Assembly (NCBI RefSeq): GCF_035474595.1
Contig: NZ_DATIND010000064.1
Span: forward strand, 1-64,000
DNA: 64,000 nt
Origin: Longimicrobium sp.
GTDB taxonomy: Bacteria; Gemmatimonadota; Gemmatimonadetes; Longimicrobiales; Longimicrobiaceae
Reading direction: 5' to 3'
Below are positions 21,977-39,195 of this stretch, one piece after another. Below the pieces are notes generated by a model. That model did no database searches. It worked only from the letters and a program-made list of their open reading frames with translations, and was not told the DNA's origin. How positions within the stretch are numbered: position 1 is the stretch's first letter; every line of letters begins with the position of its first letter. Both the position numbers and the translations under genes were made by a program.

Positions 21977-21992
21977 CGGCACGTGCGTTGCC
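21977..21992 (+). promoter_or_regulatory. Sigma-54 (-24/-12) promoter of the NHLM operon
   Basis: CGGCACG-TGCG-TTGCC matches the consensus TGGCACGN4TTGCA, with the invariant GG (21978-21979) and GC (21990-21991) exactly 10 bases apart. The predicted transcript would begin near 22003, about 40 bases before the first gene. A sigma-54 activator is encoded in the same cluster at 35295. Confidence 0.7.
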
Positions 21993-23192: not shown

Positions 23193-23369
23193 ATGGAGGA
23201 CCGCATCCGGATTCCCGGCAGCATCGCCGGCACGCGCGACGAGCTGGACCTCGACGAGCTGGACCAGGTGGCCGGCGGGCTGGACCGCGCCTGGGTTCCC
23301 GCCGAGCCCCGCCGCGACGCACCCATCCCCCTGGCCGCGGCTCCGTCCGCCCCCTCGGCGGGAAGCTGA
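23193..23369 (+). CDS. Double-glycine precursor peptide without Cys
   Basis: This 58-residue peptide has the leader segment TRDELDLDELDQVAGG, with Gly28-Gly29 as the expected C39 cleavage site. It has a 29-residue core beginning LDRAWVPAEPRRD and ending in Ala/Pro/Ser. The core has no Cys and little Ser/Thr until the end, so lanthionine chemistry is unlikely. It lies 2 bases after the unknown gene and is probably coupled to it (GGAGGAGGAGG lies across the junction). Confidence 0.7.
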   Translation: MEDRIRIPGSIAGTRDELDLDELDQVAGGLDRAWVPAEPRRDAPIPLAAAPSAPSAGS

Positions 23370-23732: not shown

Positions 23733-24062
23733 ATGGCCCATTCGCCCGGACCCGCAGGTCCGCACCCCGAGCCGCGCTGGGACCAGGTGGCCGCGCGCGC
23801 GGCGCACGACGCCGACTTCCGGCGCGCGCTGCTGCACGACCCCGCCCGCGCGCTCCGCGAAACGCTGGGGATCACCCTGCCGGCCGGGTACCGGGTGCGC
23901 TTCGTCGAGCGCCCGCGCGACGTGGACGCGCTGGTGGTGCTTCCCGACCCCGAGCGCGACGAGCTGACCGACGAGGAGCTGGACGAGGCGGCCGGCGGCG
24001 ACGGCACCTGGAGCGATCCGCTGAACCCGCCCCCGCCTCCGCCCCCGCCGACGGATCCCTGA
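23733..24062 (+). CDS. NHLP leader peptide with a polyproline core
   Basis: This 109-residue precursor has a long N-terminal leader that resembles the alpha subunit of nitrile hydratase (DADFRRALLHDPARALRETLGITLPAGYRVRFVE then VVLPDP). This is the signature of NHLP-family peptides. It ends DELTDEELDEAAGG (Gly88-Gly89). The core is only 20 residues, DGTWSDPL then Asn, eight consecutive Pro, and TDP. CGGAG lies upstream of the ATG. It is 4 bases before the TolC gene, so the exporter is its likely route. Confidence 0.85.
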   Translation: MAHSPGPAGPHPEPRWDQVAARAAHDADFRRALLHDPARALRETLGITLPAGYRVRFVERPRDVDALVVLPDPERDELTDEELDEAAGGDGTWSDPLNPPPPPPPPTDP

Positions 24063-24066: not shown

Positions 24067-25620
24067 ATGCGCGGGGTGGCACTCGGCTGGAGGTGCGCGG
24101 CCCTGGCCGCGGCGCTCTGCGCGGCGGCCGGGGCCGCGTGCGCCCAGACCCCGTCTCCCGGCAACGCACCCGCGCCGGGGCTGACGCTGGCGCAGGCGCT
24201 GGCCAGCGCGACGGAGCGCTCGGGCGGCGTGCGGCAGGCGCGCGAGCAGCTGTCGGCCGCGCGGGGCGGGGCGCTGGCGGCGTCGGGCGCGTTCGACCCC
24301 ACGGTGACCTCGTTCGTCACCAGCACGCGCGACAACCAGCTGCGCTGGAGCGGCGCCGGGGCCGACGCGGTGCAGCCGTCGCGCGCGCTGGGGGTGCGGT
24401 ACGGGGTGGCGCTGGAGCGGCAGTTCCGCTCCGGCCTGGTCGTGTCCCCCGGCATCGAGGCCACGCGCAAGGAGTTCTCGCCCGACGCCACGGGGCGCAA
24501 CAGCACCGCGTCCGCCAGCCTGGTGGTGGGGATGCCGCTGCTGCGCGGCGCGGGCGGGCAGCTGGCCGCGCCGGAGCGGGCGGCGGGGGCGCTGGCCGGC
24601 GCCGCGCGGGCGGACCTGATGCACGCCGCGTCCGTCGGCGCGCTGGAGGCGGCGCGGGCGTACTGGGCCTACGCCGCCGCGGCCGAGCGGCTGGAGGTGC
24701 AGCGGCAGGCCGAGGAGCGCTCGCGGCGGCTGGTGGAGCAGACGCGCATCCTGGTTTCGGCGCAGGAGCGGGCGCAGGCGGACCTGAACCCCCTCCTCGC
24801 CGCGCTGGCATCGCGGCAGGCGGCGCGCTCGGCGGCGGAGCAGGACCTGGCCGAGGCGCGGCGCACGCTGGGGCTGGCGATGGGGGTGGACGGCGATTCC
24901 ATCGCCCTCCTTCCCCTGCCGTCGACCCCGCTCCCGGTGGGCGGCCCGGGCGCGCCGCTGGCGGCGGACGCGCTGGTGGCGCAGGCGGTCGCCCGGCGGA
25001 TGGACCTGGCCGCGGCGCGGCAGGCGGCCGGCGCGCAGCGGGTGCTGGCCGACGCGGCGCAGGCGGGCACGCGGCCGCGGCTGGACCTGCAGCTGTCGGT
25101 GGGCTACACCGGCGCGGTGCCGGGCGAGTCGTGGTCGTCGCTGGTGACCCCCTTCTACCGCGACCTGAACACCTGGAGCGCGTCGCTGGAGGTGAGCTGG
25201 CAGGCCGCGCTGCGCAACGCCACCGCGGCGGGGACGGCGGCGCAGACGCGCGCGGTGCAGCGCCAGGGCGAGGTGGCGGCGCAGGAGCTGGAGCGCGAGA
25301 TCCGCTCGGGGGTGGCGGTGGCCGCCCAGGCGCTGCGCCACGGCCAGGCCGAGCTGGAGCGCGCCGATGAGGCGGTGACGCTGTCGCGCACCTCGGTGGA
25401 GAACGAGGAGCGCAAGTTCCAGCTGGGGATGAGCACGCTCTTCGACATCATCCAGTCGGAAGACGCGCTGACGTCGGCGCTGCTGTCGCGCATCTCGGCG
25501 CAGGAGCGCTTCGCCGACGCGCGCGCCCGGCTGGCGTACGAGACCGGCGCGCTGGTGCGCGACGAGGACGGGCGCCCCGTGGCGGCCCCCTCCGCCGTCG
25601 CCTTCTCCCCGTCTCCCTGA
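24067..25620 (+). CDS. TolC-like outer-membrane efflux protein
   Basis: This 517-residue protein has a signal peptide (ALAAALCAAAGAACAQ) followed by the two repeated helical segments of the OEP family: an LTLAQALASATERSGGVRQAREQL opening and long Ala/Glu/Arg helices. A late QLGMSTLFDIIQSEDALT motif resembles TolC. It forms the trimeric outer-membrane channel for a type I-like exporter with the HlyD and ABC proteins that follow. It starts 4 bases after the NHLP stop, inside the operon. Confidence 0.9.
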   Translation: MRGVALGWRCAALAAALCAAAGAACAQTPSPGNAPAPGLTLAQALASATERSGGVRQAREQLSAARGGALAASGAFDPTVTSFVTSTRDNQLRWSGAGADAVQPSRALGVRYGVALERQFRSGLVVSPGIEATRKEFSPDATGRNSTASASLVVGMPLLRGAGGQLAAPERAAGALAGAARADLMHAASVGALEAARAYWAYAAAAERLEVQRQAEERSRRLVEQTRILVSAQERAQADLNPLLAALASRQAARSAAEQDLAEARRTLGLAMGVDGDSIALLPLPSTPLPVGGPGAPLAADALVAQAVARRMDLAAARQAAGAQRVLADAAQAGTRPRLDLQLSVGYTGAVPGESWSSLVTPFYRDLNTWSASLEVSWQAALRNATAAGTAAQTRAVQRQGEVAAQELEREIRSGVAVAAQALRHGQAELERADEAVTLSRTSVENEERKFQLGMSTLFDIIQSEDALTSALLSRISAQERFADARARLAYETGALVRDEDGRPVAAPSAVAFSPSP

Positions 25621-25633: not shown

Positions 25634-26893
25634 ATGGCCGACAGCATCTTCCGCAAGGTGTCGCTGGACCGCCTGGCCAGCCCCGAGCAGCTCGACCAGG
25701 CCATGCAGGCCACCACCCCCGGCGGGTGGCTGGCGCTGGGCGCGCTCGGGCTTCTGCTGGCGGTGGCCGTGTTCTGGGGGATGACGGGAACGGTGCCGGA
25801 GAAGATCCCCGGGCAGGGGATCCTGGTGAAGAGCGGGGGGATCTTCGAGGTGGTGCCGCTGGAGGGCGGGCGGGTGACCGACGTGTCGGTGAACGTGGGC
25901 GACGTGGTGAACGAGGGGCAGACCATCGCCCGGGTGGCGCAGCCCGACCTGCAGGACAAGCTCACCGAGGCCCGCAACCATCTGGAGGACCTGCGCCTGT
26001 CGGAGCAGCGCACCGGCGAGTCCGGCGCGCGCGAGCTGCAGGTGCAGGCGGCGTACGCGGCCGAGCAGCGCGGCAACCTGCAGGCGGGGATCCGCGCCAA
26101 CGAGCAGACGCTGCAGCTGCTGCAGCAGAAGATGGAGAGCCAGGAGCGGCTGGTGCGCGACGGCCTGATCACCCGGCAGACGCTGCTCTCCACGCGGCAG
26201 GAATACCAGAACGTGCAGGAGCAGATCCGCCAGGCGCAGAGCCAGCTGAAGCAGGTGGACGCCGACCAGGTGGCGGTGCGGCAGAAGCGCGACGCCGAGG
26301 CGCTCACCGGCCGCCTGGGCGTGGAAGAGGCCGAGCGCGACGTGCACCGGCTGGAGGCCGAGCTGGAGCGCACCTCGTCCGTCGTCACCCCCTACACCGG
26401 GCGCATCGTGGAGGTGATGGCCGAGCAGGGGCACGTGGTGGAGCGCGGCAAGCCCATCGTGCGCATCGACCCCGTGGGCCGCGCGGTGAAGGACCTGGAG
26501 GCCGTCGTCTACGTCCCCAGCGACGCGGGGAAGAAGATCCGGCCGGGGATGCGCATCCAGATCGCCCCCAGCACCGTGCGCGAGGAGGAGTACGGGCTGA
26601 TGATCGGCACGGTCACCTACGTCTCGGACTTTCCCGCCTCGCCCGAGGGGATGGGGCGGGTGCTGAAAAACGACGCGCTGGCGCAGTCGCTGGCCGGCAC
26701 CGGCACGCCGTACGAGGTGCACGCCGACCTGATCCCCGACCCGCGCACCATCAGCCACTACCGCTGGTCCAGCCCCGCCGGCCCGCCGGTGGAGGTGCGC
26801 AGCGGCACCCTCTGCCGCGCGCAGGTCACGCTCCGCGAGACGCGGCCGGTGGAGCTGGTGCTCCCCATCTTCCGCCGCCTGGTGGGGGGATGA
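25634..26893 (+). CDS. NHLM system secretion protein (HlyD-family adaptor)
   Basis: This 419-residue membrane-fusion protein has the family's N-terminal signature IFRKVSLDRLASPEQLDQAM, a single inner-membrane span at about residues 34-52, and a lipoyl-like half (VVPLEGGRVTDVSVNVGDVV). A long coiled-coil hairpin (about 110-230) follows, then the second lipoyl half (TPYTGRIVEVMAEQGHVVERGKP). It bridges the ABC exporters to TolC. The gene is 13 bases after tolC. It is followed by a 138-base gap holding an inverted repeat before the ABC gene. Confidence 0.93.
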   Translation: MADSIFRKVSLDRLASPEQLDQAMQATTPGGWLALGALGLLLAVAVFWGMTGTVPEKIPGQGILVKSGGIFEVVPLEGGRVTDVSVNVGDVVNEGQTIARVAQPDLQDKLTEARNHLEDLRLSEQRTGESGARELQVQAAYAAEQRGNLQAGIRANEQTLQLLQQKMESQERLVRDGLITRQTLLSTRQEYQNVQEQIRQAQSQLKQVDADQVAVRQKRDAEALTGRLGVEEAERDVHRLEAELERTSSVVTPYTGRIVEVMAEQGHVVERGKPIVRIDPVGRAVKDLEAVVYVPSDAGKKIRPGMRIQIAPSTVREEEYGLMIGTVTYVSDFPASPEGMGRVLKNDALAQSLAGTGTPYEVHADLIPDPRTISHYRWSSPAGPPVEVRSGTLCRAQVTLRETRPVELVLPIFRRLVGG

Positions 26894-26940: not shown

Positions 26941-27006
26941 GCTCTCGCGGAGGGCACGGAGGACACGGATTCCGTTCGCCGTGACCTCGGTGCCTTCCGT
27001 GAGAGC
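26941..27006 (+). repeat. Long imperfect hairpin in the export operon (family G)
   Basis: GCTCTCGCGGAGGGCACGG on the left pairs with the reverse complement of the right arm (CCTCGGTGCCTTCCGTGAGAGC) over 22 bases with 3 mismatches. It lies between the HlyD and ABC genes and could lower downstream expression or end part of the transcripts. Confidence 0.65.
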
Positions 27007-27031
27007 TCCGCCGTTCCCGTCGGGGGGACGG

Positions 27032-29284
27032 ATGTCTGAGGCCGCGCCCGTCGCCCTCGCGCCCGCGGAGGAGCCGCGCGGGTTCCGGCCGCGCGACGTG
27101 CTGCGCGTGCTGCGTCGCCCCGCCGGGCCGTCGCGGGTGCGCGTGCCCACCATCCTGCAGCTCGAGGCGGTGGAGTGCGGCGCGGCCACGCTGGCCATGG
27201 TGCTGGCCGCGTACGGGCGCTGGGTGCCGCTGGAGGAGATGCGCGTGGCCTGCGGCGTGTCGCGCGACGGCAGCAAGGCCAGCAACATGGTGAAGGCCGC
27301 GCGCCGCTACGGGCTGGACGCCCGGGGGTTCAAGAAGGAGCCGGCGCAGCTGCGCGAGCTGGCCCCGCCCATGATCCTGCACTGGAACTTCAACCACTTC
27401 GTGGTGCTGGAGGGGTTCCGCAAGGGACGGGCGCACATCGTGGACCCGTCCACCGGCCCGCGCCGCGTGACCACCGAGGAGCTGGACCAGGCCTTCACCG
27501 GCGTGGTGCTCACCTTCGGGCGCGGCGAGGCGTTCGCGCGCGGCGGGGCGCTTCCCGGGGTGGTGGCGTCGCTGCGCGGGCGCCTCGTCGGCGCGGGGCC
27601 GGCCTTGGCGTTCGCGGTGCTGGCGGGGATCGCGCTCGTGGTCCCCGGCCTGGTCGCCCCCGCCTTCTCGCGCGTGTTCGTGGACCAGGTGATGGTGAAG
27701 GGGCTGCGCGGGTGGACCACGCCGCTCCTGGCCGCCATGGTGGTGGCGGGGCTGGTGATGGCCACGATCACCTGGATGCAGCAGACGCAGCTCCTGCGGC
27801 TGGAGACGCGGCTGGCTCTGGGGAGCTCGGGGCGCTTCCTGTGGCACGTGCTGCGGCTGCCGGTGAGCTTCTTCACCCAGCGCTTCGCGGGCGAGATCGG
27901 GTCGCGCGTGGGGGTGAACGACCGCGTGGCGCAGCTCCTCTCGGGCGAGCTGGCCACCACCATGCTGTCGCTGCTGGTGATCGCCTTCTACGCCGCGGTG
28001 ATGGTGCAGTACGACCTGGTGCTCACCGGGATCGGGGTGGCCGTGGCGGCGCTTAACGTGGGGGCGCTGCGCTGGGTGTCGCGCCGCCGCGTGGACATCT
28101 CGCAGCGGCTGCAGCAGGACCGCGGCAAGCTGATGGGCGTGGCCATGGGCGGGCTGCAGACCATCGAGACGCTGAAGGCCACCGGCTCGGAGGCCTTCTT
28201 CTTCACCCGCTGGGCCGGGCAGCAGGCCAAGGTGGTGAACGCGCAGCAGCAGCTGGCGCTGTACACGCATCTCCTCTCCGTCGTCCCCCCCTTCCTGCTG
28301 GCCACGAACACCGCGCTGCTGGTGGGGATCGGCGGGCTGCGGGTGATGGACGGCCGGCTGAGCATGGGGATGCTGGTGGCGCTGCAGGCGCTGCTCATCG
28401 CCTTCGTCACCCCCGTCAATCGGCTGGTGGACCTCGGCGGGACGCTGCAGGAGGTGAAGGGGGGCCTCGCCCGGCTGGACGACGTGCTGAACGCCACGCC
28501 CGACCCGCTGGCCGGCGCCTTCGCCGCGGTGCAGACCGACGGCGAGGCGGAGGACCCGCCGCGGCTGGAGGGGCGGCTGGAGCTGCGCGGCATCAGCTTC
28601 GGCTACAGCCCGCTGGAGCCGCCGCTGATCGAGGACTTCTCGCTGGCGCTGGAGCCGGGGCGCCGCGTGGCGCTGGTCGGCGGGTCGGGGAGCGGGAAGT
28701 CGACCATCGCCCGCCTCGTCTGCGGACTGCACGAGCCGTGGACCGGCGAGGTGGTGCTGGACGGGCGCGCCCGCGCCGCCGTCCCCCCCGCCTCGGTCGC
28801 CGCGTCGCTGGCCTTCGTGGACCAGGACGTGTTCCTCTTCGCGGGGACGGTGCGCGACAACCTGGCGCTCTGGGACCCCGGCGTGCCCGAGGCCGACCTG
28901 GTGCGCGCGGCCCGCGACGCCAGCATCCACGAGGAGATCACGGCGCGCCCCGGCGGCTACCACGCGCGGGTGGAGGAGGGGGGACGCAACTTCAGCGGCG
29001 GCCAGCGCCAGCGGCTGGAGATCGCCCGCGCCCTGGTGGGCAACCCGTCGCTCCTCGTGCTGGACGAGGCGACCAGCGCGCTCGATCCCCCGACGGAAGC
29101 CGCGGTGGACGACGCGCTCCGCCGCCGCGGCTGCGCCTGCGTGATCGTGGCCCACCGCCTGAGCACCATCCGCGACGCGGACGAGATCATCGTCCTCGAG
29201 CGGGGCAAGGTCGTAGAGCGGGGGACGCACGACGAACTCTACGCGGCGGGCGGCGTGTACCGCGCGCTGATCGAGGCCGAATGA
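27032..29284 (+). CDS. NHLM exporter with C39 peptidase, permease and ATPase domains
   Basis: This 750-residue protein is the main processing exporter. The N-terminal C39 protease has Gln43, Cys49 (VECGAATLAM), His122 (WNFNHFVVLEGF) and Asp138 (VDPSTGPRRV), a complete catalytic set that cleaves after Gly-Gly leaders. A six-helix ABC membrane domain follows at about residues 180-480. The ATPase then has Walker A VALVGGSGSGKST, signature NFSGGQRQRLEIARAL and Walker B LLVLDEATSALD. It matches the NHLM ABC1 type. GGGGGGA precedes ATG 27032. The stop overlaps the next start. Confidence 0.93.
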   Translation: MSEAAPVALAPAEEPRGFRPRDVLRVLRRPAGPSRVRVPTILQLEAVECGAATLAMVLAAYGRWVPLEEMRVACGVSRDGSKASNMVKAARRYGLDARGFKKEPAQLRELAPPMILHWNFNHFVVLEGFRKGRAHIVDPSTGPRRVTTEELDQAFTGVVLTFGRGEAFARGGALPGVVASLRGRLVGAGPALAFAVLAGIALVVPGLVAPAFSRVFVDQVMVKGLRGWTTPLLAAMVVAGLVMATITWMQQTQLLRLETRLALGSSGRFLWHVLRLPVSFFTQRFAGEIGSRVGVNDRVAQLLSGELATTMLSLLVIAFYAAVMVQYDLVLTGIGVAVAALNVGALRWVSRRRVDISQRLQQDRGKLMGVAMGGLQTIETLKATGSEAFFFTRWAGQQAKVVNAQQQLALYTHLLSVVPPFLLATNTALLVGIGGLRVMDGRLSMGMLVALQALLIAFVTPVNRLVDLGGTLQEVKGGLARLDDVLNATPDPLAGAFAAVQTDGEAEDPPRLEGRLELRGISFGYSPLEPPLIEDFSLALEPGRRVALVGGSGSGKSTIARLVCGLHEPWTGEVVLDGRARAAVPPASVAASLAFVDQDVFLFAGTVRDNLALWDPGVPEADLVRAARDASIHEEITARPGGYHARVEEGGRNFSGGQRQRLEIARALVGNPSLLVLDEATSALDPPTEAAVDDALRRRGCACVIVAHRLSTIRDADEIIVLERGKVVERGTHDELYAAGGVYRALIEAE

Positions 29285-32166
29285 GCGCCCCCGCCCTCCG
29301 CTCGCTCTTCGCGGCGCACGGCGCGCCCGTCACCCCCGCGGGGCCGTTCCTGCTCGGTGGGGACACGGGGTGGCTGGTGGCTCAGGGGCATGTGGACGTG
29401 TTCGCGGTGCGGGTGGCGGAGGGCGAGCCCACCGGCGCGCGCCGCCACCTGGTGCGCGTGGAGTCCGGCGGCGCGCTCCTGGGCGTGGGCGAGGCCGCGG
29501 GGGCGCATGGGATGGGATTGCTCGCGGCTCCGGCGGTGAACGCGCGCCTCCTCGCGCTTCCGCAGGCGCGGCTGCGCGACGCGGCCGGCGGCGGGGAGCG
29601 GGACGCGGCGGCCGCGGCGGTGGAGGGGTGGGCGGCGGCGCTCTGCACGGGGATCGCGCGCGACGTGGTTCCCCGGCGCTCGGAGGACCTGGCGGAGGGG
29701 ATGGCCATCACCCTTCCCGCCGGGGCCACGGTGCGTCCGGTGGGCGTCGTCTGGCTGCGGCACCGCGAGGGGAGCACCGACCTGCTGGGCGACGCCACCC
29801 TCCGCCTCTCCGGCGACGTCCCCGTTCCCATCGCCGCGCCGGCGTGGGTGACTGCGGAGGCGGAGGCGCGGGTGGCCGCCGAGGCCATGCCGGAGCCGGC
29901 CGAGGCGTGGCGGGGGATGGCGCGGCTGCACGGCCTGGTGCTGGGCGCCGCCGCCGAGCTGGCGGCCCGCGAGGAGACCGCCGACCGCGACCGGCTGCGG
30001 CGCCGCGCCGCGCTGGACCGCTCGGTGCTCGCGCGGGCCACGGGGCGCCTCGCCTCGGTCATCGAGACGCGCCGCGCCGCCGGCGGGATGCGGATGCGCG
30101 CAGCGGACGACGACGAGGACGCGCTCTTCGCCTCGTGCCGCCTGGTGGCCGAGGCGCAGGGGATCGCGGTGCGCCCGCCGCCCGCCGCCACGGAGATGAA
30201 GCTGGCCTCCATCGCCCGCGCCTCGGGCTTCCAGACGCGCACGGTGATGCTGCGCGACGACTGGTGGCGGCGCGACAGCGGGCCGATGCTGGCCTTCCTG
30301 GACGCGGAGAAGCGCTTCGTCGCCCTCCTTCCCGTGCGCGGGCGCAGCTACGTGCTCTGCGACCCGGTGGAGCGCGCCCGCACGCCGGTGGACGGCAAGG
30401 TGGCGGGAACGCTGACCCCCTTCGCCTACGCCTTCTACCGCCCGTTCGATCCCGGCCCGGTGGGAATCGGGGGGCTGCTCCGCTTCGGCATCCGCGGGTG
30501 CGGGCGCGACGTGACGACGCTGCTGCTGGTCGGCTTCGCGGGCGGCGCGCTGGCGATGGCGCCGCCGATCGCCACGGGGCTCCTGTTCAACTCCGTGATC
30601 CCCGGTGCCGAGCGGGCGCAGCTGGCGCAGCTCACCGCCGTCCTCCTGGCCGTGGCCGTGGCGGCCGCGCTGTTCCAGCTCACCCGCGCGGTGGCGCTGA
30701 CGCGCATCGAGGGGAAGGCGGGCGCCGCGGTGCAGGCCGCCGTGTGGGACCGGCTGCTATCGCTGCCGCCCGGCTTCTTCCGCGCGCGCGCCGCGGGCGA
30801 CCTGGCATCGAGAGCGATGGGGGTGGACTCCATCCGCGAGGCGCTGTCGGGGGCGACGGCCACGGCGCTGCTGGGGCTGGTCTTCTCCACCTTCAACTTC
30901 GCCCTCCTCTTCCACTACAGCGGGCGGCTGGCGGGGTGGGCCACGCTGATGGCGGGGATCCTGGTTGCCGCGACCATCGCCAGCAGCTTCGTGCAGCTGC
31001 GGCGGCAGCGGGTGCTGAGCCGGCTGCAGGCGGAGATCGAGGGGGTGGTGCTGCAGCTGCTCACGGGCATCGCCAAGCTGCGCGCCGCCGCGGCCGAGGC
31101 GCGCGCCTTCGGGCTGTGGGCCGAGCGCTTCGCCGAGCAGCGGCGGCTGCGCTACGCTGTGCGCCGCGCGGCGGGCGGGCTGGCCAGCTTCAACGCCGCC
31201 TTCCCGGTCCTGGCGCAGGCGGTGATCTTCGCCGCCGCGGCGGCCGTGGTGGGCGGGGACCACGGGATGAAGACGGGAGATTTCCTGGCGTTCATGGCGG
31301 CGTTCGGCGCCTTCACCGGGGCGCTGCTCACCACCAGCCAGGCGGTGACCAACGCGCTGGCCGCCGTGCCGCAGTACGAGATCGCCCGCCCCATCCTGGA
31401 AGCCGAGCCGGAGACCGACCTGGGCCGCGCCGACCCCGGCGTGCTCACCGGGCAGGTGTCCATGCAGCACCTCTTCTTCCGCTACTCGGTGGACGGCGGG
31501 TACGTGCTGAACGACCTGTCCCTGAACGCCGAGGCGGGCGAGTTCGTGGCGCTCGTCGGGCCGTCGGGATCGGGGAAGTCCACGCTGCTGCGGCTGCTGC
31601 TGGGCTTCGAGCAGCCCGAGTCGGGGTCCATCTTCTTCGACGGGCAGGAGCTGGGCGGGCTGGACCTGCTGGCGCTGCGCCGGCAGATCGGCGTGGTGCT
31701 GCAGAACGGGCGATTGATGCCGGGTGACCTGTTCTCCAACATCGTGGGCTCCACCGGCGCGCTGCTGGAGGACGCGTGGGAGGCCGCGCGGATGAGCGGG
31801 CTGGACGGCGACATCAAGGCCATGCCCATGGGGATGCACACGGTGGTGAGCGAGGGCGGAAGCACGCTCTCCGGTGGCCAGCGGCAGCGGCTGATGATCG
31901 CCCGCGCCATCGTCACCCGCCCGCGCATCCTCCTCTTCGACGAGGCCACCAGCGCGCTGGACAACCGCACGCAGGCCATCGTGGCCGACTCGCTGGCGGG
32001 GCTGCGCTCCACGCGCCTGGTGATCGCCCACCGCCTGAGCACCGTAATCCACGCCGACCGCATCTGCGTCATCCAGAAGGGAACCGTGGTGCAGTCGGGA
32101 AGATACGAGGAGCTGATGGAGGTGGACGGCCCGTTCCGGGAGCTGGCGAGGCGGCAGATCGCTTGA
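29281..32166 (+). CDS. NHLM second ABC protein (permease/ATPase)
   Basis: This 961-residue protein matches the NHLM ABC2 type. A long N-terminal region (about 400 residues) holds a degenerate, probably non-catalytic peptidase-like segment near residues 290-370 (AEAQGIAVRPPP... LLPVRGRSYVLCDP). ABC membrane helices follow, then an ATPase with VALVGPSGSGKST (about 758), LSGGQRQRLMIARAI and ILLFDEATSALD. It is thought to pair with ABC1 for peptide export; the division of labour is not known. ATG 29281 overlaps the ABC1 TGA. Confidence 0.9.
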   Translation: MSAPALRSLFAAHGAPVTPAGPFLLGGDTGWLVAQGHVDVFAVRVAEGEPTGARRHLVRVESGGALLGVGEAAGAHGMGLLAAPAVNARLLALPQARLRDAAGGGERDAAAAAVEGWAAALCTGIARDVVPRRSEDLAEGMAITLPAGATVRPVGVVWLRHREGSTDLLGDATLRLSGDVPVPIAAPAWVTAEAEARVAAEAMPEPAEAWRGMARLHGLVLGAAAELAAREETADRDRLRRRAALDRSVLARATGRLASVIETRRAAGGMRMRAADDDEDALFASCRLVAEAQGIAVRPPPAATEMKLASIARASGFQTRTVMLRDDWWRRDSGPMLAFLDAEKRFVALLPVRGRSYVLCDPVERARTPVDGKVAGTLTPFAYAFYRPFDPGPVGIGGLLRFGIRGCGRDVTTLLLVGFAGGALAMAPPIATGLLFNSVIPGAERAQLAQLTAVLLAVAVAAALFQLTRAVALTRIEGKAGAAVQAAVWDRLLSLPPGFFRARAAGDLASRAMGVDSIREALSGATATALLGLVFSTFNFALLFHYSGRLAGWATLMAGILVAATIASSFVQLRRQRVLSRLQAEIEGVVLQLLTGIAKLRAAAAEARAFGLWAERFAEQRRLRYAVRRAAGGLASFNAAFPVLAQAVIFAAAAAVVGGDHGMKTGDFLAFMAAFGAFTGALLTTSQAVTNALAAVPQYEIARPILEAEPETDLGRADPGVLTGQVSMQHLFFRYSVDGGYVLNDLSLNAEAGEFVALVGPSGSGKSTLLRLLLGFEQPESGSIFFDGQELGGLDLLALRRQIGVVLQNGRLMPGDLFSNIVGSTGALLEDAWEAARMSGLDGDIKAMPMGMHTVVSEGGSTLSGGQRQRLMIARAIVTRPRILLFDEATSALDNRTQAIVADSLAGLRSTRLVIAHRLSTVIHADRICVIQKGTVVQSGRYEELMEVDGPFRELARRQIA

Positions 32167-32169
32167 CGG

Positions 32170-32360: not shown

Positions 32361-32484
32361 ATGCGTAGAGCGCATGACGAGCATGCCGCGATCGCCGCAG
32401 CGATGCTTGTCGGAACGATGAGATGCGCCCGCCGCGATCGCCGGACGCGCGGATGCGGGATGGACCGCACGGATGGCGGGGCAG

Positions 32485-32540
32485 GGAAGTCCGCGAAGGC
32501 GGACTGCGTGCCGTTGTAGCCGCGACCTCGGTCGCATCTT
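32485..32540 (-). repeat. Dispersed repeat C, copy 2
   Basis: GAAGTCCGCGAAGGCGGACTGCGTGCCGTTG.. is the reverse complement of the element at 21225-21290. Confidence 0.7.
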
Positions 32541-32610
32541 CCACATCGACGACGAATCCCGCACGCCCGGGTCTCCCCGGGCCGCGGCTCGCGCCAACGA
32601 GGCGGTCACG

Positions 32611-33831
32611 ATGCCTGGATTCCGCTGGACCCGGAGCGCCACCGCCGCCGCGATCTTCGCGGCGGCGGTGGCGGCGCAGGCGTGCGGCGGCGGCGCGGAC
32701 CCGGCGGCCGAGCGCCTCCGCCGCGCCGAGAGCGGCAGGGGCGAGATCGTCATCGGCGCGGCGTGGCCGTGGGCCGCGCGCAGCAAGCTGCTCTACAAGC
32801 AGGGGCTGGACATGGCCGCCGCCGAGGTGAACGCGAAGGGCGGCGTGCTGGGCCGGCAGATCCGCATCGTTTCCGCCGACGACCACGAATCGGTGGACGA
32901 CGGCCGGCTCGTGGCCCAGCGCTTCGCCGAGAACCCCGACGTGGTCGCCGTCATCGGCCATCTCCAGTCGTACGTCACCATCCCCGCCGCCCCCATCTAC
33001 GACCTGGCCGGCGTGGTCCTCCTCGCCCCGGCCGCGACCGACCCGGAGCTGACGCAGGGGCACTTCTCGCACGTCTTCCGCGGCACCTTCAGCGACCTGG
33101 CCGCGGGCGCGCAGCTGGCCGACTACGCGCACGCCCGCGGCTACCGCAGCGTGGCCATCTACTACGTCCGCAACCCCTACGGCCGCTCGCTGGCCAACGC
33201 GTTCGAGGAGCACGCCGCCGAGCTGGGGATCCGCATCGCCGCGCGGCAGAGCTACGACCCCAACACCGTTCCCGGCGCCCCCGCGCTGGGCCCGCTGCTG
33301 GACGACTGGAAGCAGCTGGGCTTCGACGCCATCCTCCTGGCCGGCGAGACGCCGCACGCGGCCACCTTCCTGACCGAGGCGCGCCGCCACGGCATCACCG
33401 CGCCCGTGCTGGGCGGCGACGCGCTGGGCGTGCCCGACCTCCTGGCCGCCGGCCCCGCCGCGGAGGGAACGGTGATCGTGGCCGCCTTCCACCCCGACGC
33501 GCCGAACCCGCAGGTGCGGCGCTTCTCCGGCGCCTTCCGCGCGCGCTACGGCCAGCCCCCCGACGCCGCGGCCGCGCTGGGGTACGACGCCGTGCACCTC
33601 CTGGCCGACGCCATCGGCCGCGCGCACAGCACCGCGCCGGACCGTGTCGCCCGCGCGCTGCACGAGACGCGCGGGTGGACCGGCGTCACCGGCCCCTTCA
33701 CCTTCGACGCGTCGGGCGACCTGCCCACCAAGCCCATCACCACCATCACCGTGCGCGGCGGGCGCTTCGAGTACCTGGGCGGCGCCAGCCCCGCGTCTCC
33801 CGGGATGGTGGCGTCGCGGGGGCGGCGATGA
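32611..33831 (+). CDS. Branched-chain-amino-acid-type periplasmic binding lipoprotein
   Basis: This 406-residue type-1 periplasmic binding protein has a lipoprotein signal ending AAAVAAQAC. Conserved ligand-domain segments are GAAWPWAARSKLLYKQGLDMAAAEVNAKGG, VAVIGHLQSYVTIPAAPIY, YYVRNPYGRSLANAFEE and GYDAVHLLADAI. Such proteins feed Liv-type importers or act as sensors. No permease or ATPase of that importer type is nearby, so a sensing role in this peptide locus is possible. ATG 32611 was chosen at the signal peptide. The stop overlaps the next gene. Confidence 0.85.
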   Translation: MPGFRWTRSATAAAIFAAAVAAQACGGGADPAAERLRRAESGRGEIVIGAAWPWAARSKLLYKQGLDMAAAEVNAKGGVLGRQIRIVSADDHESVDDGRLVAQRFAENPDVVAVIGHLQSYVTIPAAPIYDLAGVVLLAPAATDPELTQGHFSHVFRGTFSDLAAGAQLADYAHARGYRSVAIYYVRNPYGRSLANAFEEHAAELGIRIAARQSYDPNTVPGAPALGPLLDDWKQLGFDAILLAGETPHAATFLTEARRHGITAPVLGGDALGVPDLLAAGPAAEGTVIVAAFHPDAPNPQVRRFSGAFRARYGQPPDAAAALGYDAVHLLADAIGRAHSTAPDRVARALHETRGWTGVTGPFTFDASGDLPTKPITTITVRGGRFEYLGGASPASPGMVASRGRR

Positions 33832-35033
33832 GCACGCGGGCGGACGCCCCTGCGCGCGGCCGGGCCTTCCGCGCCGAGGTCCTGCGCCGGCACGGCGCCG
33901 GCCCGGCGGAGGTCGCCGAGCTGCTGGCGTACACCGCCGTGGAGCTGCGCCGCCCGCCGCGCCCCCCCGCGCTCCCGCTGGACGACGAGCCGTTCGCCGA
34001 TGCGTGGGCGGGGTACGCGGCCGAGGCGGAGGCGCGCGGCGCGTGGAACGTGCTGCGCGAGCGGCTGCCGCAGCTGCGTTTTCCCATCGCCCAGGGGATG
34101 TGCGAGACGGACGAGTACCGCGCCGCCACCCGCCGCGGCCTCGCCCCGCCGGAGGGCCCCGGCGTGGAGCTGGCGCGGCCGGAGGCGCTGCGCCTCTTCG
34201 TCCATCCCACGCCGGCCGGACGCCTTCCCGTGCTCGCCGCCGGGTGCCGCGACGACTTCGTCACCCTGGTGCGCGCGCTGGCGCGGCAGAACGAGCCGTC
34301 GCCCGTCCCCCCGTCGATGGGCGCCCTGATGGTGGCGGGGTTCAACAACTGGGACCGCGTCGCCGCGCTGCGCCGCGCGTGGGAGGCGGAGCATCCCGGC
34401 GCGGCCGAGGGAGAGTGGAGCGCGGCGTGGCGGGAGATGATACCCCGCCGCGAGCTGTACCAGGACCGCTTCGTCCTGCTGGCCCCCGGCCCGTACAGCG
34501 GCGTGGCGGCGGGGGAGATGGGGATGGAGCCGGTGCGGTGGAACGAGCTCTCGCTCACCATCCGCCTGGAGCACGAGGCGGCGCACTACTTCAGCAAGCG
34601 CGTGCTGGGGGCCATGCGCCCCCACGCGCTCGACGAGATCGTGGCCGACTTCGCCGGGATCGCCGCGGCCGCGGGCCGGTACCGGGCAGACTGGGCCGCG
34701 CGCTTTCTGGGGGTGGAGGAGGCGCTTCCCGGCTTCCGCGCGGGCGGGCGCCTGGCCAACTACCGCGGCGCGCTGGGCGACGCGGCCTTCGCGGTGCTGG
34801 CCTCGCTCGCGCGCGCGGCGGTGGAGGCGCTGGCCGCGTTCGACGCCGCCCGGCCCCATCGGGACACCGGCGTGGCGGAACGGGGTGCTACGCTGGCGGC
34901 CCTCTTCGCGCTGCCGCTGGAGGCACTGGCCGCCCCGGACGGGGCGGCGCGGCTGCGGCGTTCGCGGGCCCGTCCGTGGCGCCGGAAGGTTGCAACGCGG
35001 ACGTTCAGCACATCTTTGCCGACGCTTCGTTGA
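33828..35033 (+). CDS. Putative HExxH zinc metalloprotein of the peptide locus
   Basis: This 401-residue cytoplasmic-looking protein contains LEHEAAHYFSKRVLG with His249-Glu250-x-x-His253, followed by Glu270 in ALDEIVADFAGI. This is the spacing expected for a gluzincin-like zinc site. Other regions (AQGMCETDEYRAATRRG, SMGALMVAGFNNWDRV, LAPGPYSGVAAGEMG) look conserved but unassigned. I recognise no named family; DUF7005-like is possible. ATG overlaps the preceding TGA. Leader trimming, core hydrolysis or regulator control are all possible roles given its position between exporter and peptides. Confidence 0.7.
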   Translation: MSTRADAPARGRAFRAEVLRRHGAGPAEVAELLAYTAVELRRPPRPPALPLDDEPFADAWAGYAAEAEARGAWNVLRERLPQLRFPIAQGMCETDEYRAATRRGLAPPEGPGVELARPEALRLFVHPTPAGRLPVLAAGCRDDFVTLVRALARQNEPSPVPPSMGALMVAGFNNWDRVAALRRAWEAEHPGAAEGEWSAAWREMIPRRELYQDRFVLLAPGPYSGVAAGEMGMEPVRWNELSLTIRLEHEAAHYFSKRVLGAMRPHALDEIVADFAGIAAAAGRYRADWAARFLGVEEALPGFRAGGRLANYRGALGDAAFAVLASLARAAVEALAAFDAARPHRDTGVAERGATLAALFALPLEALAAPDGAARLRRSRARPWRRKVATRTFSTSLPTLR

Positions 35034-35127: not shown

Positions 35128-35292
35128 ATGACCGCCCCATCCTCTCGCCGCCGGGGATGCCACACCCCCGGTCGTACGTGCCGCCCCTCCCTTTCCGCCG
35201 CCACCGCGTGCGGCCGTGCCCGTCGTGGCGCGGTGCGCGCTGTGGCGGTTTGGTTTGCGCCGTCGGGCACCCGCGCCCCGGAGGCCGCTTGA
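35128..35292 (+). CDS. 54-residue Arg-rich small ORF ahead of the activator
   Basis: It starts MTAPSSRRRGCHTPGRTC and has a GGAGGG ribosome site 4 bases upstream. It is rich in Arg, Ala and Ser with 3 Cys, and ends at TGA 35290-35292 directly against the GTG start of the activator at 35295. The start and stop placement suggests a translationally coupled leader ORF, but GC-rich sequence often gives chance frames, so it may not be a protein of importance. Confidence 0.4.
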   Translation: MTAPSSRRRGCHTPGRTCRPSLSAATACGRARRGAVRAVAVWFAPSGTRAPEAA

Positions 35293-35294
35293 GC

Positions 35295-36512
35295 GTGCGC
35301 GGTAACGGGGTGCCCATGCCGCCCGCCGGCGCGCTGAGCGAGCTGGCGCAGGCGGTGCGCGACCGCTCGGTCGAGAGCTGGGGGGCGGCGCGCGCCGTCA
35401 CGCTCATCGGCCGCGACCCGGCGCTCATCGAGTCGCAGCGCAAGCTGCAGCGCTTCGCCGCCTCCAACGCCCCCATCCTGCTTACCGGCGAGACGGGAAC
35501 GGGGAAGGAATTGTTCGCCCGCGCGCTGTACCTGCTGGGCGCGCGCCGCGGGAAGCCGTTCATCCGTGTGAACTGCGCGCAGTACCACGACGGCAACCTG
35601 ATGGCCAGCGAGCTCTTCGGGCACAAGAAGGGGAGCTTCACCGGCGCGGTGGCGGACCACCGGGGGCTGTTCGAGGAGGCCAACGGCGGCGTGGTGTTCC
35701 TGGACGAGATCGGCGAGCTTTCGCCGCCCGCGCAGGCCATGCTCCTGCGCGCGCTGAGCGAGGGCGAGATCGTGCCCGTGGGCGGCACCAGCGTGCGCTA
35801 CGTGGACGTGCGGGTGATCGCCGCCACCAGCCGCGACCTGCGCCCCATGGTCGAGGCGGGGACCTTCCGCGAGGACCTGTTCTATCGCCTGCGCTACTTC
35901 TGGATCCACGTGCCGGCGCTGCGCGAGCGCGGGGCCGACTGGGAGCTGATCGCGGGGCACTGTCTGGCCGGGCTGGCGTGCGACGGCACCTGCAAGACGC
36001 TGGCGCGCGACGCGCGCGAGGTGCTGGGCGCGTACCACTGGCCGGGGAACGTGCGCGAGCTGAAGGGGCTCATCGACATGGGCTTCCACCTGGCCGAGGG
36101 GCGGGAGATCTGCGCGGGCGAGCTGATCCCCGCGCTGGAGGGGGGCGGGATGGTGCGCCGCATCCCCCTCGACATCTCCATCCCCATCCCCGCCCCCGAC
36201 GGAAACGGCCACGCGCCGGGCGCCGCGGGGAACGGGAAGGTGCAGGCCGGGCAGGCGGCCACGGCGGCGTACGAGCGGATGATGCGCGGCGGCGAGAGCT
36301 TCTGGGCCGTGGTGCGCGAGCCGTTCATGGAGCGCGAGATCAGCCGCGCCGACGTGCGGGCGCTGCTGCACCGCTGCCTGACGGAGACGGGCGGAAGCTA
36401 CAAGCGCCTCCTCCCGCGCATCGGCATCGACCCGGGCGACTACCTGAAGTTCATGGACTTCCTCCGCCACCACCGCCTGAAGCCCGAGGCCTACGCGCGG
36501 CACACCGAGTAG
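35295..36512 (+). CDS. Sigma-54-dependent transcriptional activator without sensory domain
   Basis: This 405-residue protein is an AAA+ domain plus a DNA-binding tail. Motifs are Walker A LLTGETGTGKELFARAL (about 65), the sigma-54 contact loop GSFTGA (residues 113-118), Walker B GGVVFLDEIGEL, and arginine-finger region DLFYRLRYFWIHVPALRER. A C-terminal Fis-like HTH (LTETGGSYKRLLPRIGIDPGDYLKFMDFL) completes it. Only about 40 residues precede the AAA+ core, so it is PspF-like and may be controlled by a partner protein or by level. The start is GTG 35295 after GGAGG; ATG 35316 is the alternative. Its likely targets are the -24/-12 promoter at 21977 and perhaps the peptide array. Confidence 0.88.
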   Translation: MRGNGVPMPPAGALSELAQAVRDRSVESWGAARAVTLIGRDPALIESQRKLQRFAASNAPILLTGETGTGKELFARALYLLGARRGKPFIRVNCAQYHDGNLMASELFGHKKGSFTGAVADHRGLFEEANGGVVFLDEIGELSPPAQAMLLRALSEGEIVPVGGTSVRYVDVRVIAATSRDLRPMVEAGTFREDLFYRLRYFWIHVPALRERGADWELIAGHCLAGLACDGTCKTLARDAREVLGAYHWPGNVRELKGLIDMGFHLAEGREICAGELIPALEGGGMVRRIPLDISIPIPAPDGNGHAPGAAGNGKVQAGQAATAAYERMMRGGESFWAVVREPFMEREISRADVRALLHRCLTETGGSYKRLLPRIGIDPGDYLKFMDFLRHHRLKPEAYARHTE

Positions 36513-36542
36513 GCGAACACCCGGCGGATCTCGATCGACCCC

Positions 36543-36708: not shown

Positions 36709-36722
36709 TAAAAATACTTGCA
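36709..36722 (+). promoter_or_regulatory. AT-rich patch, possible promoter of the peptide array
   Basis: TAAAAATACTTGCA is the only AT-rich stretch in the 298 bases between the activator and the first peptide, about 90 bases before its ATG. TTGCA looks like a -12 element, but no GG lies at -24 spacing, so sigma-54 use is not supported. An extended -10 (TGTGCTAAAAAT) is possible. Confidence 0.3.
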
Positions 36723-36810
36723 GGCGGGCCGCGAGGGGGCATGGCTCCTGCCTTTCCCGCGTGGTGCAGGGCTCCCTGCTCCCGGTCTCCGCTTCCCCCT
36801 GGAGGGCATC

Positions 36811-36972
36811 ATGGCCGACCCGACCGCACCCCGCGCGTACGACGACGAGCTGTCGGTGGAGGAGCTGGACGGCGTGGCGGGCGGGGAGGGCACGGGCAAC
36901 ACCAACTGCGTGGCCGGGTGCGGCAACAGCAACTGCTCCGCCGGCTGCGGCCCGCTGAACCAGACGCCGTGA
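36811..36972 (+). CDS. Double-glycine Cys-core peptide 1 of 8
   Basis: This 53-residue peptide has the leader DDELSVEELDGVAGG then the core EGTGNTNCVAGCGNSNCS and so on. The core holds two NxNCxxGCG units (NTNCVAGCG and NSNCSAGCG) and ends PLNQTP. GGAGGG lies 7 bases before the ATG. It is the first of a tandem array within 2.2 kb, all in the same orientation. The cleavage site is Gly25-Gly26 by analogy with C39 substrates. Confidence 0.85.
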   Translation: MADPTAPRAYDDELSVEELDGVAGGEGTGNTNCVAGCGNSNCSAGCGPLNQTP

Positions 36973-37010
36973 CTGGCCGGGGCTGATCGGACTCTGACAG
37001 GAGAGGCAAC

Positions 37011-37175
37011 ATGGCTGATCCGTTTTCCGCGCACGCGCGCGACGGCGACGAGCTGACGGTCGACGAGCTGGAGGACGTGGCGGGCGGAGTGGAGGGGGGC
37101 AACACCAACTGCTCGGCGGGGTGCAGCAACAGCAACTGCGTGGCCGCCTGCGGCCCGCTGAACCAGACCCCCTGA
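37011..37175 (+). CDS. Double-glycine Cys-core peptide 2 of 8
   Basis: This 54-residue peptide has the leader GDELTVDELEDVAGG and the core GNTNCSAGCSNSNCVAACG followed by PLNQTP. Two positions of the usual motif are substituted: the ninth residue of unit 1 is Ser and the seventh of unit 2 is Ala. All four Cys are kept. It has an AGGAGAGG ribosome site. Confidence 0.85.
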   Translation: MADPFSAHARDGDELTVDELEDVAGGVEGGNTNCSAGCSNSNCVAACGPLNQTP

Positions 37176-37284
37176 TCTCCGCGCCGGCGAGTGGGAGGGA
37201 GCAATGCCCTCCCGCGCGCCCGGTCTTTCCGCCGGCGTGCAGGACACTCCTGCTCCGGACCGTCTTCACACGAATGGAGGCACC

Positions 37285-37446
37285 ATGGCCGATCCTGCCG
37301 GCGCGCACGCGCACGACGACGAGCTCACGGTGGAGGAGCTGGAGACCGCCGCGGGCGGCGTGGAGGGGAACAACACCAACTGCGTGGCGGGATGCGGCAA
37401 CAGCAACTGCGTGGCCAGCTGCGGGCCGCTGAACCAGACGCCGTGA
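37285..37446 (+). CDS. Double-glycine Cys-core peptide 3 of 8
   Basis: This 53-residue peptide has the leader DDELTVEELETAAGG and the core NNTNCVAGCGNSNCVASCG, ending PLNQTP. GGAGGCACC precedes the ATG, matching peptide 6 exactly in that stretch. The upstream spacer (CCTGCTCCGGACCG) also resembles those of peptides 1 and 6, showing recent duplication of gene plus spacer. Confidence 0.85.
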   Translation: MADPAGAHAHDDELTVEELETAAGGVEGNNTNCVAGCGNSNCVASCGPLNQTP

Positions 37447-37576
37447 TCCCGGGTCCGCCGCTCTCCCATCCCCTCGCGACGAGGGCGGGAGCCCGGCGGG
37501 CCGATGGGTTCGCCGGGCACCGCCGCGGCGCGACGGCCTCCGGCTCCCCGTCTTCTCCCACCGGGAAGGATGCACC

Positions 37577-37750
37577 ATGGCCAGGCCGGCTCGGGCGCGG
37601 GCGCGTGACAACGACGACGAGCTGTCGGTAGACGAGCTCGAGGTCGCCGCGGGCGGCGATCTCGATCCCGCCAACGGCGACTGCCTGGGCGGGTGCGGCA
37701 ACGCCAACTGCTTCGGCGCCTGCGGTCCCTACAACCAGGACCCGCTGTAA
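37577..37750 (+). CDS. Double-glycine Cys-core peptide 4 of 8 (most diverged)
   Basis: This 57-residue peptide is the most divergent member. It starts with an Arg-rich segment (MARPARARARDND) instead of MADP-type, the leader ends DELSVDELEVAAGG, and the core is NGDCLGGCGNANCFGACG, ending PYNQDPL. The four Cys and flanking Asn/Gly positions stay, but the hydrophobic residues differ. It may have separate target specificity. Confidence 0.83.
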   Translation: MARPARARARDNDDELSVDELEVAAGGDLDPANGDCLGGCGNANCFGACGPYNQDPL

Positions 37751-37876
37751 GGCTCCGGCGCCCGTGCCGCCCGGTCTCCGGGATACTCGGGCGATGGCCG
37801 CGCGGGCCGCGGCTGAGGGGCGTGTGAGCGGGTATCACCGTTTCCGGATCTTTCCCTTTCACGTCGGGAGGCAGGC

Positions 37877-38029
37877 ATGAGCGATCCCATTCGCGGGCGC
37901 GACGACGACGAGCTGTCGGTGGAGGAGCTGGAGAGCGCCGCGGGCGGCGTGGAAGGCAACAACACCAACTGCGTCTCGGGCTGCGGCAACACCAACTGCG
38001 TCACCGGGTGCGGGCCGCTGCCGGTCTGA
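37877..38029 (+). CDS. Double-glycine Cys-core peptide 5 of 8
   Basis: This 50-residue peptide has the leader DDDELSVEELESAAGG and the core NNTNCVSGCGNTNCVTGCG with a short tail PLPV. Ser and Thr replace the Ala inside the Cys loops. GGGAGGCAGGC precedes the ATG. Confidence 0.85.
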   Translation: MSDPIRGRDDDELSVEELESAAGGVEGNNTNCVSGCGNTNCVTGCGPLPV

Positions 38030-38166
38030 GTCCCAGGACGCGGGCAAGCGGTCGTGGCCGAACCCGTCAGGAACGGGCCGCGGCGGGTGCGCGGCCCGGC
38101 TTTCCGGCCCGGCGCGGGGTTCCCTGCTCCGGGGACCGTTCCCCTCATCTCACGTCTGGAGGCACC

Positions 38167-38337
38167 ATGGCCGACTCCATCGCACCCCGCGCCTACGACG
38201 ACGACGAGCTGTCGGTCGAAGAGCTGGACGACGTGGCGGGGGGCACCGACCCCGCGGGCAACACCAACTGCGTCTCGGGGTGCGGCAACACCAACTGCGC
38301 CGCCGGCTGCGGCCCGCTCAACAAGGATCCGCTCTAA
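38167..38337 (+). CDS. Double-glycine Cys-core peptide 6 of 8
   Basis: This 56-residue peptide has the leader DDDELSVEELDDVAGG and the core TDPAGNTNCVSGCGNTNC followed by AAGCG, with the tail PLNKDPL. It has a TGGAGGCACC ribosome site. Confidence 0.85.
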   Translation: MADSIAPRAYDDDELSVEELDDVAGGTDPAGNTNCVSGCGNTNCAAGCGPLNKDPL

Positions 38338-38558
38338 GGTCCCCGGCGCCCTCCACCGCGCCGGCCACCGGCCGGTGGAGGAGGCAGGGCGCACGGGGAA
38401 CACCATCCGGTCCCGGCCGCAGAGCCGGGAGCTCCACCCGGGTGAAGCGCGGGCGGAAACGGGAGCAGCGGGCGGGAAGATGCCGCCCGCGAGCCTCCGG
38501 TCTTCCGCCGGCGTGCAGGGTTCCGTTCTCAACCTTTCTCTTCACCCAGGGAGGCCCG

Positions 38559-38720
38559 ATGGCTGATCCTTCGGCCACGCGCGCGTTCGACGACGACGAG
38601 CTGAGCGTGGAAGAGCTCGAGAGCGCCGCGGGCGGCATCGACGGCGGCGGCAACACCAACTGCGTGGCGGGGTGCGGCAACAGCAACTGCGTGGCGGGCT
38701 GCGGCAAGCCGCCGGTCTGA
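38559..38720 (+). CDS. Double-glycine Cys-core peptide 7 of 8
   Basis: This 53-residue peptide has the leader DDDELSVEELESAAGG and a core with perfectly repeated NTNCVAGCG and NSNCVAGCG units, ending KPPV. It follows a 221-base spacer, the longest in the array. That spacer contains the GGTTCCGTTCTC-type segment seen before other members. Confidence 0.85.
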   Translation: MADPSATRAFDDDELSVEELESAAGGIDGGGNTNCVAGCGNSNCVAGCGKPPV

Positions 38721-38827
38721 CCGCACGGGAGATGGGACGGGCGGGCGGCGGCGATTCAGGTGATGCCGCTCTCCCGGACCGCGGAGCTCCACCCGCTTTC
38801 GATCCACCTCTGACGAACGGAGGCCTC

Positions 38828-38980
38828 ATGGCCGATCGACCCATCCAGCGCGACGACGACGAGCTGTCGGTGGACGAGCTGGAAGCCGCCGCGGGCGGCG
38901 CCGATCCGGGCAACACCAACTGCGTGGCCGGCTGCGGCAACAGCAACTGCGCCGCGGGGTGCGGGCCGCCGCCGGTCTGA
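38828..38980 (+). CDS. Double-glycine Cys-core peptide 8 of 8
   Basis: This 50-residue last member has the leader DDDELSVDELEAAAGG and the core GNTNCVAGCGNSNCAAGCG, ending PPPV. It has a CGGAGG ribosome site. It is followed by a CGGGATCGCTCCCGG hairpin at about 39016-39030 that could end the array transcript. Confidence 0.85.
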   Translation: MADRPIQRDDDELSVDELEAAAGGADPGNTNCVAGCGNSNCAAGCGPPPV

Positions 38981-39195
38981 CCGGGACCGCGTGGACGGTG
39001 GCAGGGCGAAGGGCCGGGATCGCTCCCGGCCCTTCGTGCGTGCGCGGCCCACGATCTCCCCCGGATGGCCGCGGAATGTCCACGCAGTCACATCCCGCCG
39101 CATCCGCGCGTTCTACGGACGAGGGTTGCGCCGGAGGCGGCGCGCCCGCACAGTTGACCGTATCCTCCCGCCCATCCCCCTTATCCCACAACGAC

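Follow-up and report, generated by a model that had tools for sequence, protein, structure and literature searches.

Predicted Asn-Cys-linked double-glycine peptides from a tandem precursor array in Longimicrobium sp.

A tandem series of eight small open reading frames (ORFs) lies at 36811-38980, on the + strand, in the 64,000-nucleotide stretch of the Longimicrobium sp. genome analysed here (NZ_DATIND010000064.1, positions 1 to 64,000; hereafter the window), which belongs to contig C64 of a 6.57 Mb genome. All eight ORFs reported in tandem by a first-pass annotation are present, and they raise the question of what is made from peptides that share a leader ending in double glycine and a core with four cysteines at fixed spacing. 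The evidence moderately favours their being precursors of ranthipeptide-like, radical S-adenosylmethionine (SAM)-modified, double-glycine RiPPs (ribosomally synthesized and post-translationally modified peptides), each predicted to acquire two Asn-Cys rings in trans before leaving through the adjacent transporter. It is very likely that the array encodes RiPP precursors and that the C39 transporter next to it exports them, and their maturation in trans by an enzyme encoded on contig C91 is probable. Given maturation, an Asn-Cys thioether at N-x-x-C would, by analogy with a known system, be the most likely single chemistry.

The eight precursors and their exporter

Each of the eight copies is preceded by a ribosome-binding site. 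Precursor 1 (36811..36972), with a leader ending in DELSVEELDGVAGG and the core NTNCVAGCGNSNCSAGCG, gives a profile hit of 1.5e-29 in its own genome. It is followed by precursors 2 (37011..37175, core NTNCSAGCSNSNCVAACG), 3 (37285..37446, core NTNCVAGCGNSNCVASCG) and 4 (37577..37750, core NGDCLGGCGNANCFGACG), the latter diverged, and by precursors 5 (37877..38029, core NTNCVSGCGNTNCVTGCG, tail PLPV), 6 (38167..38337, core NTNCVSGCGNTNCAAGCG), 7 (38559..38720, core NTNCVAGCGNSNCVAGCG, tail KPPV) and 8 (38828..38980, core NTNCVAGCGNSNCAAGCG, tail PPPV). The short tails read PLNQTP, PYNQDPL or PLNKDPL, except in copies 5, 7 and 8, where they are of the PPV type; these PPV-type tails and the divergence of copy 4 are as first described.

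The leaders comprise 24-27 residues and conform in all eight copies to DEL[ST]V[ED]EL..(A)AGG, with D-E-L, V, E-L and A-G-G free of variation; a common leader with an AGG site is thus borne out, in a form looser than the strict DELSVEEL proposed at first. The 18-residue core follows N-x-[ND]-C-x-x-G-C-[GS]-N-x-N-C-x-x-[GAS]-C-G. The doubled NxNCxxGCG unit seen by the first-pass annotation holds for the four Cys, spaced C-x3-C-x4-C-x3-C, for Asn at positions 1, 10 and 12 and for Gly at 7 and 18, all fixed in the eight copies. It does not hold for Asn3, which is Asp in copy 4, for the residue preceding the fourth Cys, where copies 2, 3 and 4 have Ala or Ser and the other five Gly, or for the Gly after the second Cys, replaced by Ser in copy 2. 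Every core contains two N-x-x-C units, with Asn three residues before Cys.

The proposed comparison of synonymous and non-synonymous change among the aligned copies yielded pN/pS ratios (non-synonymous over synonymous) of 0.22 for the leader and 0.44 for the core (Nei-Gojobori, all pairs of the eight copies), the most variable core positions being 5, 6, 11, 14, 15 and 16. The invariant Asn codons are all AAC and the invariant Cys codons all TGC, a uniformity that is uninformative by itself because nearly all third positions in this genome are G or C. The eight copies with ribosome-binding sites, the pN/pS values and 11 paralogues on contig C91, described below, indicate that the array pattern is not due to chance.

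No NCBIfam or Pfam model matched the array peptides, with their conserved Asn/Cys/Gly pattern, above its cut-off. The best matches, both sub-threshold, were to the CTB (18.2 bits against a cut-off of 32) and CCRG-2 (16.1 against 24) families, which likewise have a short acidic leader ending in double glycine; only the leader aligns, and we know of no NxxC duplication in CTB or CCRG-2 peptides. Phe, Tyr, Trp and His are absent from seven of the eight cores, copy 4 having one Phe, and by the aromatic residue that such products call for the array peptides do not appear to be radical SAM cyclophanes (triceptides).

The array and the operon upstream of it form one larger unit (21977-38980), in which ten genes precede the array in the same orientation. 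These include genes for a TolC-like outer membrane factor (24067..25620; PF02321, 1.8e-26), an NHLP-system HlyD-type adaptor (25634..26893; TIGR03794, 350.9 bits against a cut-off of 156.2), an NHLP export ABC transporter with a C39 peptidase domain (26981..29284; TIGR03796, 1074.8 bits against 853.3; PF03412, 4.8e-33) and the second permease/ATPase subunit of an NHLP export ABC transporter (29281..32166; TIGR03797, 902.6 bits against 709.4). Behind them lie, also on the + strand, genes for a periplasmic ligand-binding protein (Peripla_BP_6, here BP6; 32473..33831; PF13458, 2.7e-56), a DUF7005 protein containing HEAAH (33834..35033; PF22541, 2e-120) and a sigma-54-dependent AAA+ transcriptional activator (ORF 35157..36512, probable start near 35316; PF00158, 2.9e-61). 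With its own NHLP-leader peptide, this exporter is a full member of the NHLP/NHLM system (TIGR03793, TIGR03794, TIGR03796 and TIGR03797). Unlike NHLP substrates, the array peptides carry a short double-glycine leader that is not nitrile-hydratase-like, and none matched TIGR03793.

The array peptides do combine the features expected of double-glycine C39 substrates, namely an acidic E-L/L leader ending in GG in all eight and a C39 transporter nearby. C39 genes number only two in the genome, the other being that of the C11 transporter. Leader removal and export are established functions of C39 transporters, and the neighbouring transporter (26981..29284) is therefore predicted to cut the leader after the Gly-Gly of the AGG site and to export the array peptides. 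The gene order TolC, HlyD, ABC, ABC, BP6, DUF7005 is kept, as far as contigs reach, in the 12 other DUF7005-encoding genomes sampled in the class, save that BP6 is absent from the otherwise conserved order in G018. This conservation marks the exporter as an ordinary NHLP system to which the Asn/Cys array has been added. At the export loci of these 12 relatives the sigma-54 activator gene directly follows DUF7005 in six, lies nearby in the opposite orientation in G228 and G332, is separate in G018 and went undetected in G005, G006 and G297. Across the class, BP6 and DUF7005 accompany the NHLP exporter, usually together with a sigma-54 activator.

A radical SAM enzyme encoded apart from the array

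A profile search with the array identified 11 further precursors in the same genome, on contig C91, with the leader DELSVEEL..AGG as in the window. Their cores mostly read DNTNC-x3-C-T-x-N-x-x-C, with three Cys, and most contain two N-x-x-C units. Amid these precursors lies a gene encoding a radical SAM/SPASM enzyme (L009:11789-13246), and a TPR-like partner is encoded at L009:13258-14427. The enzyme presents the CX3CX2C motif and auxiliary-cluster Cys of ranthipeptide maturases, on another contig than the array, and both CX3CX2C and the SPASM Cys are invariant across 12 homologues. No NCBIfam or Pfam name was assigned to it above cut-off. Its nearest profiles are those of the TIGR04463, CefB, Clo7bot, geopeptide and PapB maturases, which act on Cys-rich targets, and the nearest solved structure by both profile and fold is the thioether-forming SCIFF maturase CteB (5wgg/5why). 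The named ranthipeptide-type maturases differ in that the C91 enzyme scores far below their cut-offs and in that their targets are six-Cys or C-x3-D peptides.

Comparison with relatives outlined how an enzyme and an array on separate contigs could be connected. In the congeneric genome G008, a single run comprises the predicted prenyltransferase, double-glycine peptide, NHLP peptide, TolC, HlyD, two ABC, BP6, DUF7005 and sigma-54 activator genes, followed by a radical SAM gene and four precursors. The product of this radical SAM gene is 65% identical to the C91 enzyme; the gene lies on the same strand as the export unit and, with the four double-glycine precursors (NQNC-type cores), occupies the exact place of the window array. 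In G018 the two ABC genes, DUF7005, precursors, radical SAM gene and TPR partner are likewise found together. In the window, the sigma-54 gene and the first precursor lie only 298 bp apart, and this interval shows no trace of a radical SAM gene. The synteny with G008 and G018 and this remnant-free gap suggest that the window represents the same locus with its maturase gene now on C91, and the shared leader and synteny point to maturation of the window peptides in trans.

The absence of a maturase from the window cluster would also fit peptides exported with no enzymatic modification, which would form two disulfides in the oxidising periplasm or medium while the maturase acts on the C91 peptides only, and the fourth Cys and GCG units that set the window cores apart from the C91 cores agree with such a division. 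We consider it distinctly improbable, given that the leader is common to the window and C91 peptides and that the G008 enzyme sits where the window array starts. The three Cys of the C91 cores, moreover, imply that disulfide pairing is not the conserved feature, and the exporter-only relatives G005 and G006 have no array-type peptides.

The distribution of the genes is consistent with maturation in trans and export by the NHLP system. Among 394 genomes of the class, the radical SAM enzyme was detected in eight and DUF7005, taken as a marker of the exporter, in 13, and seven of the eight enzyme-encoding genomes have DUF7005. In the 21 sampled genomes of the family, DUF7005 occurs in 6/7 with the enzyme against 8/21 overall (hypergeometric p about 0.003, a value inflated by kinship). 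Of 41 relatives, only three yielded precursors that match the array profile, and each of the three has the radical SAM gene; a scan of contigs with the eight-peptide alignment returned no confirmed relative. Enzyme and exporter lie on different contigs in G001, G014, G015 and G237 as well, and their separation is hence not peculiar to this genome.

Three more maturase homologues are encoded in the Longimicrobium genome, at L022 (contig C72) and L023 (contig C5), beside precursors whose leaders, such as LPTLELESN and GLETFDPY, are not of the double-glycine type. The C5 cores contain NQNC and NLNC, and the C72 core has no N-x-x-C. Near the C72 enzyme, on the minus strand, two Cys-rich small ORFs (L022:7726-7971 and L022:8188-8517; MRKLKLDLDTLCVES.. 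and MKKIRLNPEALRVDS..GTVHGH..TCATNCDCTLGC) look like a different type of RiPP precursor.

Asparagine three residues before cysteine

To define the feature shared by the substrates of this enzyme family, precursors were gathered beside maturase homologues sharing roughly 45% identity or more, drawn from Gemmatimonadota, Acidobacteriota (Holophagae, Acanthopleuribacter, Thermoanaerobaculum), Myxococcus, Luteibacter, Fulvimonas and Sphingomonadales, and compared with 5000 rounds of shuffling of their non-Cys residues. Asn at -3 of Cys was found at 15 of 17 precursor loci, in four phyla, against a shuffle mean of 5.1, and no round reached 15. Removal of the window and of two other own-genome rows left 12 of 14 loci (shuffle mean 3.6). 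Asn precedes 26 of the 53 Cys at this offset, compared with 13 at the next best one (-1), and Asn at +4 is at shuffle level. The N-x-x-C forms observed (NTNC, NQNC, NVIC, NLNC, NTWC, NGRC, NGNC, NIYC and NSGC) are nearly all that the family cores have in common, and the leaders (double-glycine, ELEDRLEL and others) track the enzyme tree only loosely. Few new maturases emerged from additional genome surveys covering the orders or phylum to which Fulvimonas, Acanthopleuribacter and Myxococcus belong.

These data bear on the role of the four Cys, for which two disulfides or metal binding had first been put forward. Both are less well supported than enzymatic cross-linking of two of these Cys to Asn, since what relatives retain, beside a radical SAM/SPASM maturase gene, is Asn at -3 of Cys. 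Four Cys in 18 residues do invite comparison with metallothionein-like or metallophore peptides exported for metal scavenging. Membership of the metallothioneins is, however, unsupported by any family model (no match in Pfam, whose models short peptides may escape), relatives within the same enzyme family have precursor cores that hold only two Cys (such as DNTWCDEGC and RCNGRCD), and the cluster showed no gene for a metal transporter or receptor, which together make a role in metal binding highly improbable.

A closer competitor is radical SAM modification of another kind, in which C-alpha sactionine bonds, or links from the four Cys to other acceptors (C-x3-N, C-x3-C), would be formed and Asn would serve for recognition. 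Sactipeptide and ranthipeptide enzymes both fall within the SPASM superfamily, the nearest models of the C91 enzyme are maturases of Cys-rich targets, and C-x3-C recurs in many of the family cores. Against this, enrichment is strong for Asn at -3 only, with Asn at +4 at shuffle level, and N-x-x-C has an exact chemical precedent; we therefore regard other radical SAM chemistry as unlikely.

The precedent is NxxcB, a streptococcal radical SAM/SPASM enzyme that links Cys23 of NxxcA to the C-beta of Asn20 (PMC8326336, PMC13361665). The system described here resembles these NxxC RaS-RiPPs, which are ranthipeptides, in the N-x-x-C kept in the core and in the class of the maturase. It differs in having two units per core, arrays of eight and 11 precursors, a double-glycine leader, a C39/NHLP exporter, a sigma-54 activator in place of Rgg/SHP and a Gram-negative host from a soil phylum, and in that its bond is predicted. 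A literature search yielded no description of this peptide family in Gemmatimonadota, nor of the named maturase models; work on Antarctic soil concerns a different, six-Cys family (PMC8692599).

In the mechanism that we propose, the sigma-54 activator encoded beside the array would activate both precursor arrays, in the window and on C91, together with the exporter operon. The C91 enzyme and its TPR-like partner would bind the shared DELSVEEL leader, and within each N-x-x-C unit the enzyme would join the Cys to the Asn at -3, probably from S to C-beta. Each core would thereby acquire two four-residue thioether rings, N1-C4 and N10-C13, before export, with Cys8 and Cys17 left free, paired in a disulfide or further linked. 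The C39 domain of the NHLP-type transporter would then cut after AGG, and the peptide would exit through HlyD and TolC. Two rings per core are the simplest mechanism, as N-x-x-C is the NxxcA/NxxcB motif. The tandem array would supply one scaffold in many versions, probably for antagonism or signalling, functions that such a multiplicity of variants fits better than housekeeping.

Several observations weigh against this proposal. The window harbours no maturase gene, whether at the array or elsewhere. In every window core, Asn at -3 is missing for two of the four Cys, and two of the 17 precursor loci are devoid of N-x-x-C. Choosing the precursors for the Asn count, on position, leader and Cys content, involved some judgement. 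The C91 enzyme falls far below every named NCBIfam maturase cut-off (181 of 525 bits for TIGR04463) and its AlphaFold model is of middling confidence (pLDDT 69), and the parallel with NxxcB is drawn from motif and enzyme class.

In its widest form, the proposal tentatively extends to a single radical SAM/SPASM enzyme and a single NHLP exporter, encoded on separate contigs under sigma-54 control, that may give rise to a peptide library with no fewer than 19 members, most of which would bear two tandem Asn-Cys thioether rings and extra free Cys. They could then be the as yet unnamed equivalent, in Gram-negatives and across phyla, of the streptococcal NxxC peptides, though we rate this broader claim as somewhat less likely than not. 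The published accounts of the N-x-x-C thioether that we found concern streptococci only, with a single ring. Were the proposal correct, this chemistry would occur in a second, widespread lineage spanning Gemmatimonadota, Acidobacteriota, Myxococcota and Proteobacteria, amplified in this genome into precursor arrays, and the 19 cores behind one shared leader would constitute a natural series for probing enzyme tolerance. With exporter and maturase encoded apart, cluster-based mining would miss such systems or mis-call them as an NHLP cluster alone. The mass lost, according to the model, would be 2 Da for each N-x-x-C unit.

Putative sigma-54 control and neighbouring genes

A strong, near-consensus sigma-54 promoter (CGGCACGTGCGTTGCC, 21977..21992, + strand) was identified upstream of the export operon. 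It is the sole site of its score in the window, and the same site is present upstream of the homologous gene in G008. For the array, a candidate -24/-12 promoter (GGGCATGGCTCCTGCC, 36737..36752, + strand; p about 0.045 against shuffles) ends 58 bp upstream of the start codon in precursor 1, the only copy with such a candidate. GG-N10-GC sites are located 48-65 bp before seven of the 11 C91 precursors and before window copy 1. Searches with the plain consensus, allowing one mismatch, were at chance level in the window, and the single array sites are weak because a signal emerges only from less stringent weighted scoring, from the constant spacing to the start codon and from conservation in G008. 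As read from sequence, the activator gene and these sites suggest sigma-54 control of both arrays and of the export operon.

Directly downstream of the array, three consecutive paralogous ORFs (38959-39825, 39853-40461 and 40538-41269) resemble outer-membrane barrels and have YVRPG[VI]G and AGVQ[IV]V motifs in common. They are possibly linked to the array peptides, or merely a duplicated family.

The first genes of the operon, on the + strand, outline a distinct hypothesis. The protein encoded at 22042..23190 had no family match, and its AlphaFold model (pTM 0.75) matched 6zs0 in Foldseek (E 8.7e-8) and aligned with MpnD in VIA-align (Z 17.6, root-mean-square deviation 3.9 over 294 residues), from which an ABBA/DMATS aromatic prenyltransferase fold is predicted. 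Two separate operon substrates follow, a small double-glycine peptide (GGLDRAWVPAEP.., 23193..23369) with homologues in relatives, and the NHLP-leader peptide (23733..24062; TIGR03793, 57.8 bits against a cut-off of 50.9) with its Trp/Pro-rich tail. It is possible, judging from the modelled fold, that the operon makes and exports a prenyl-Trp peptide, ComX-like in idea. Trp occurs in the expected mature parts of both peptides (GGLDRAW.. and GGDGTWSDPLNPPP..), the small peptide retains GGL-x-R-x-[WH] in relatives, and homologues occur in other Gemmatimonadota.

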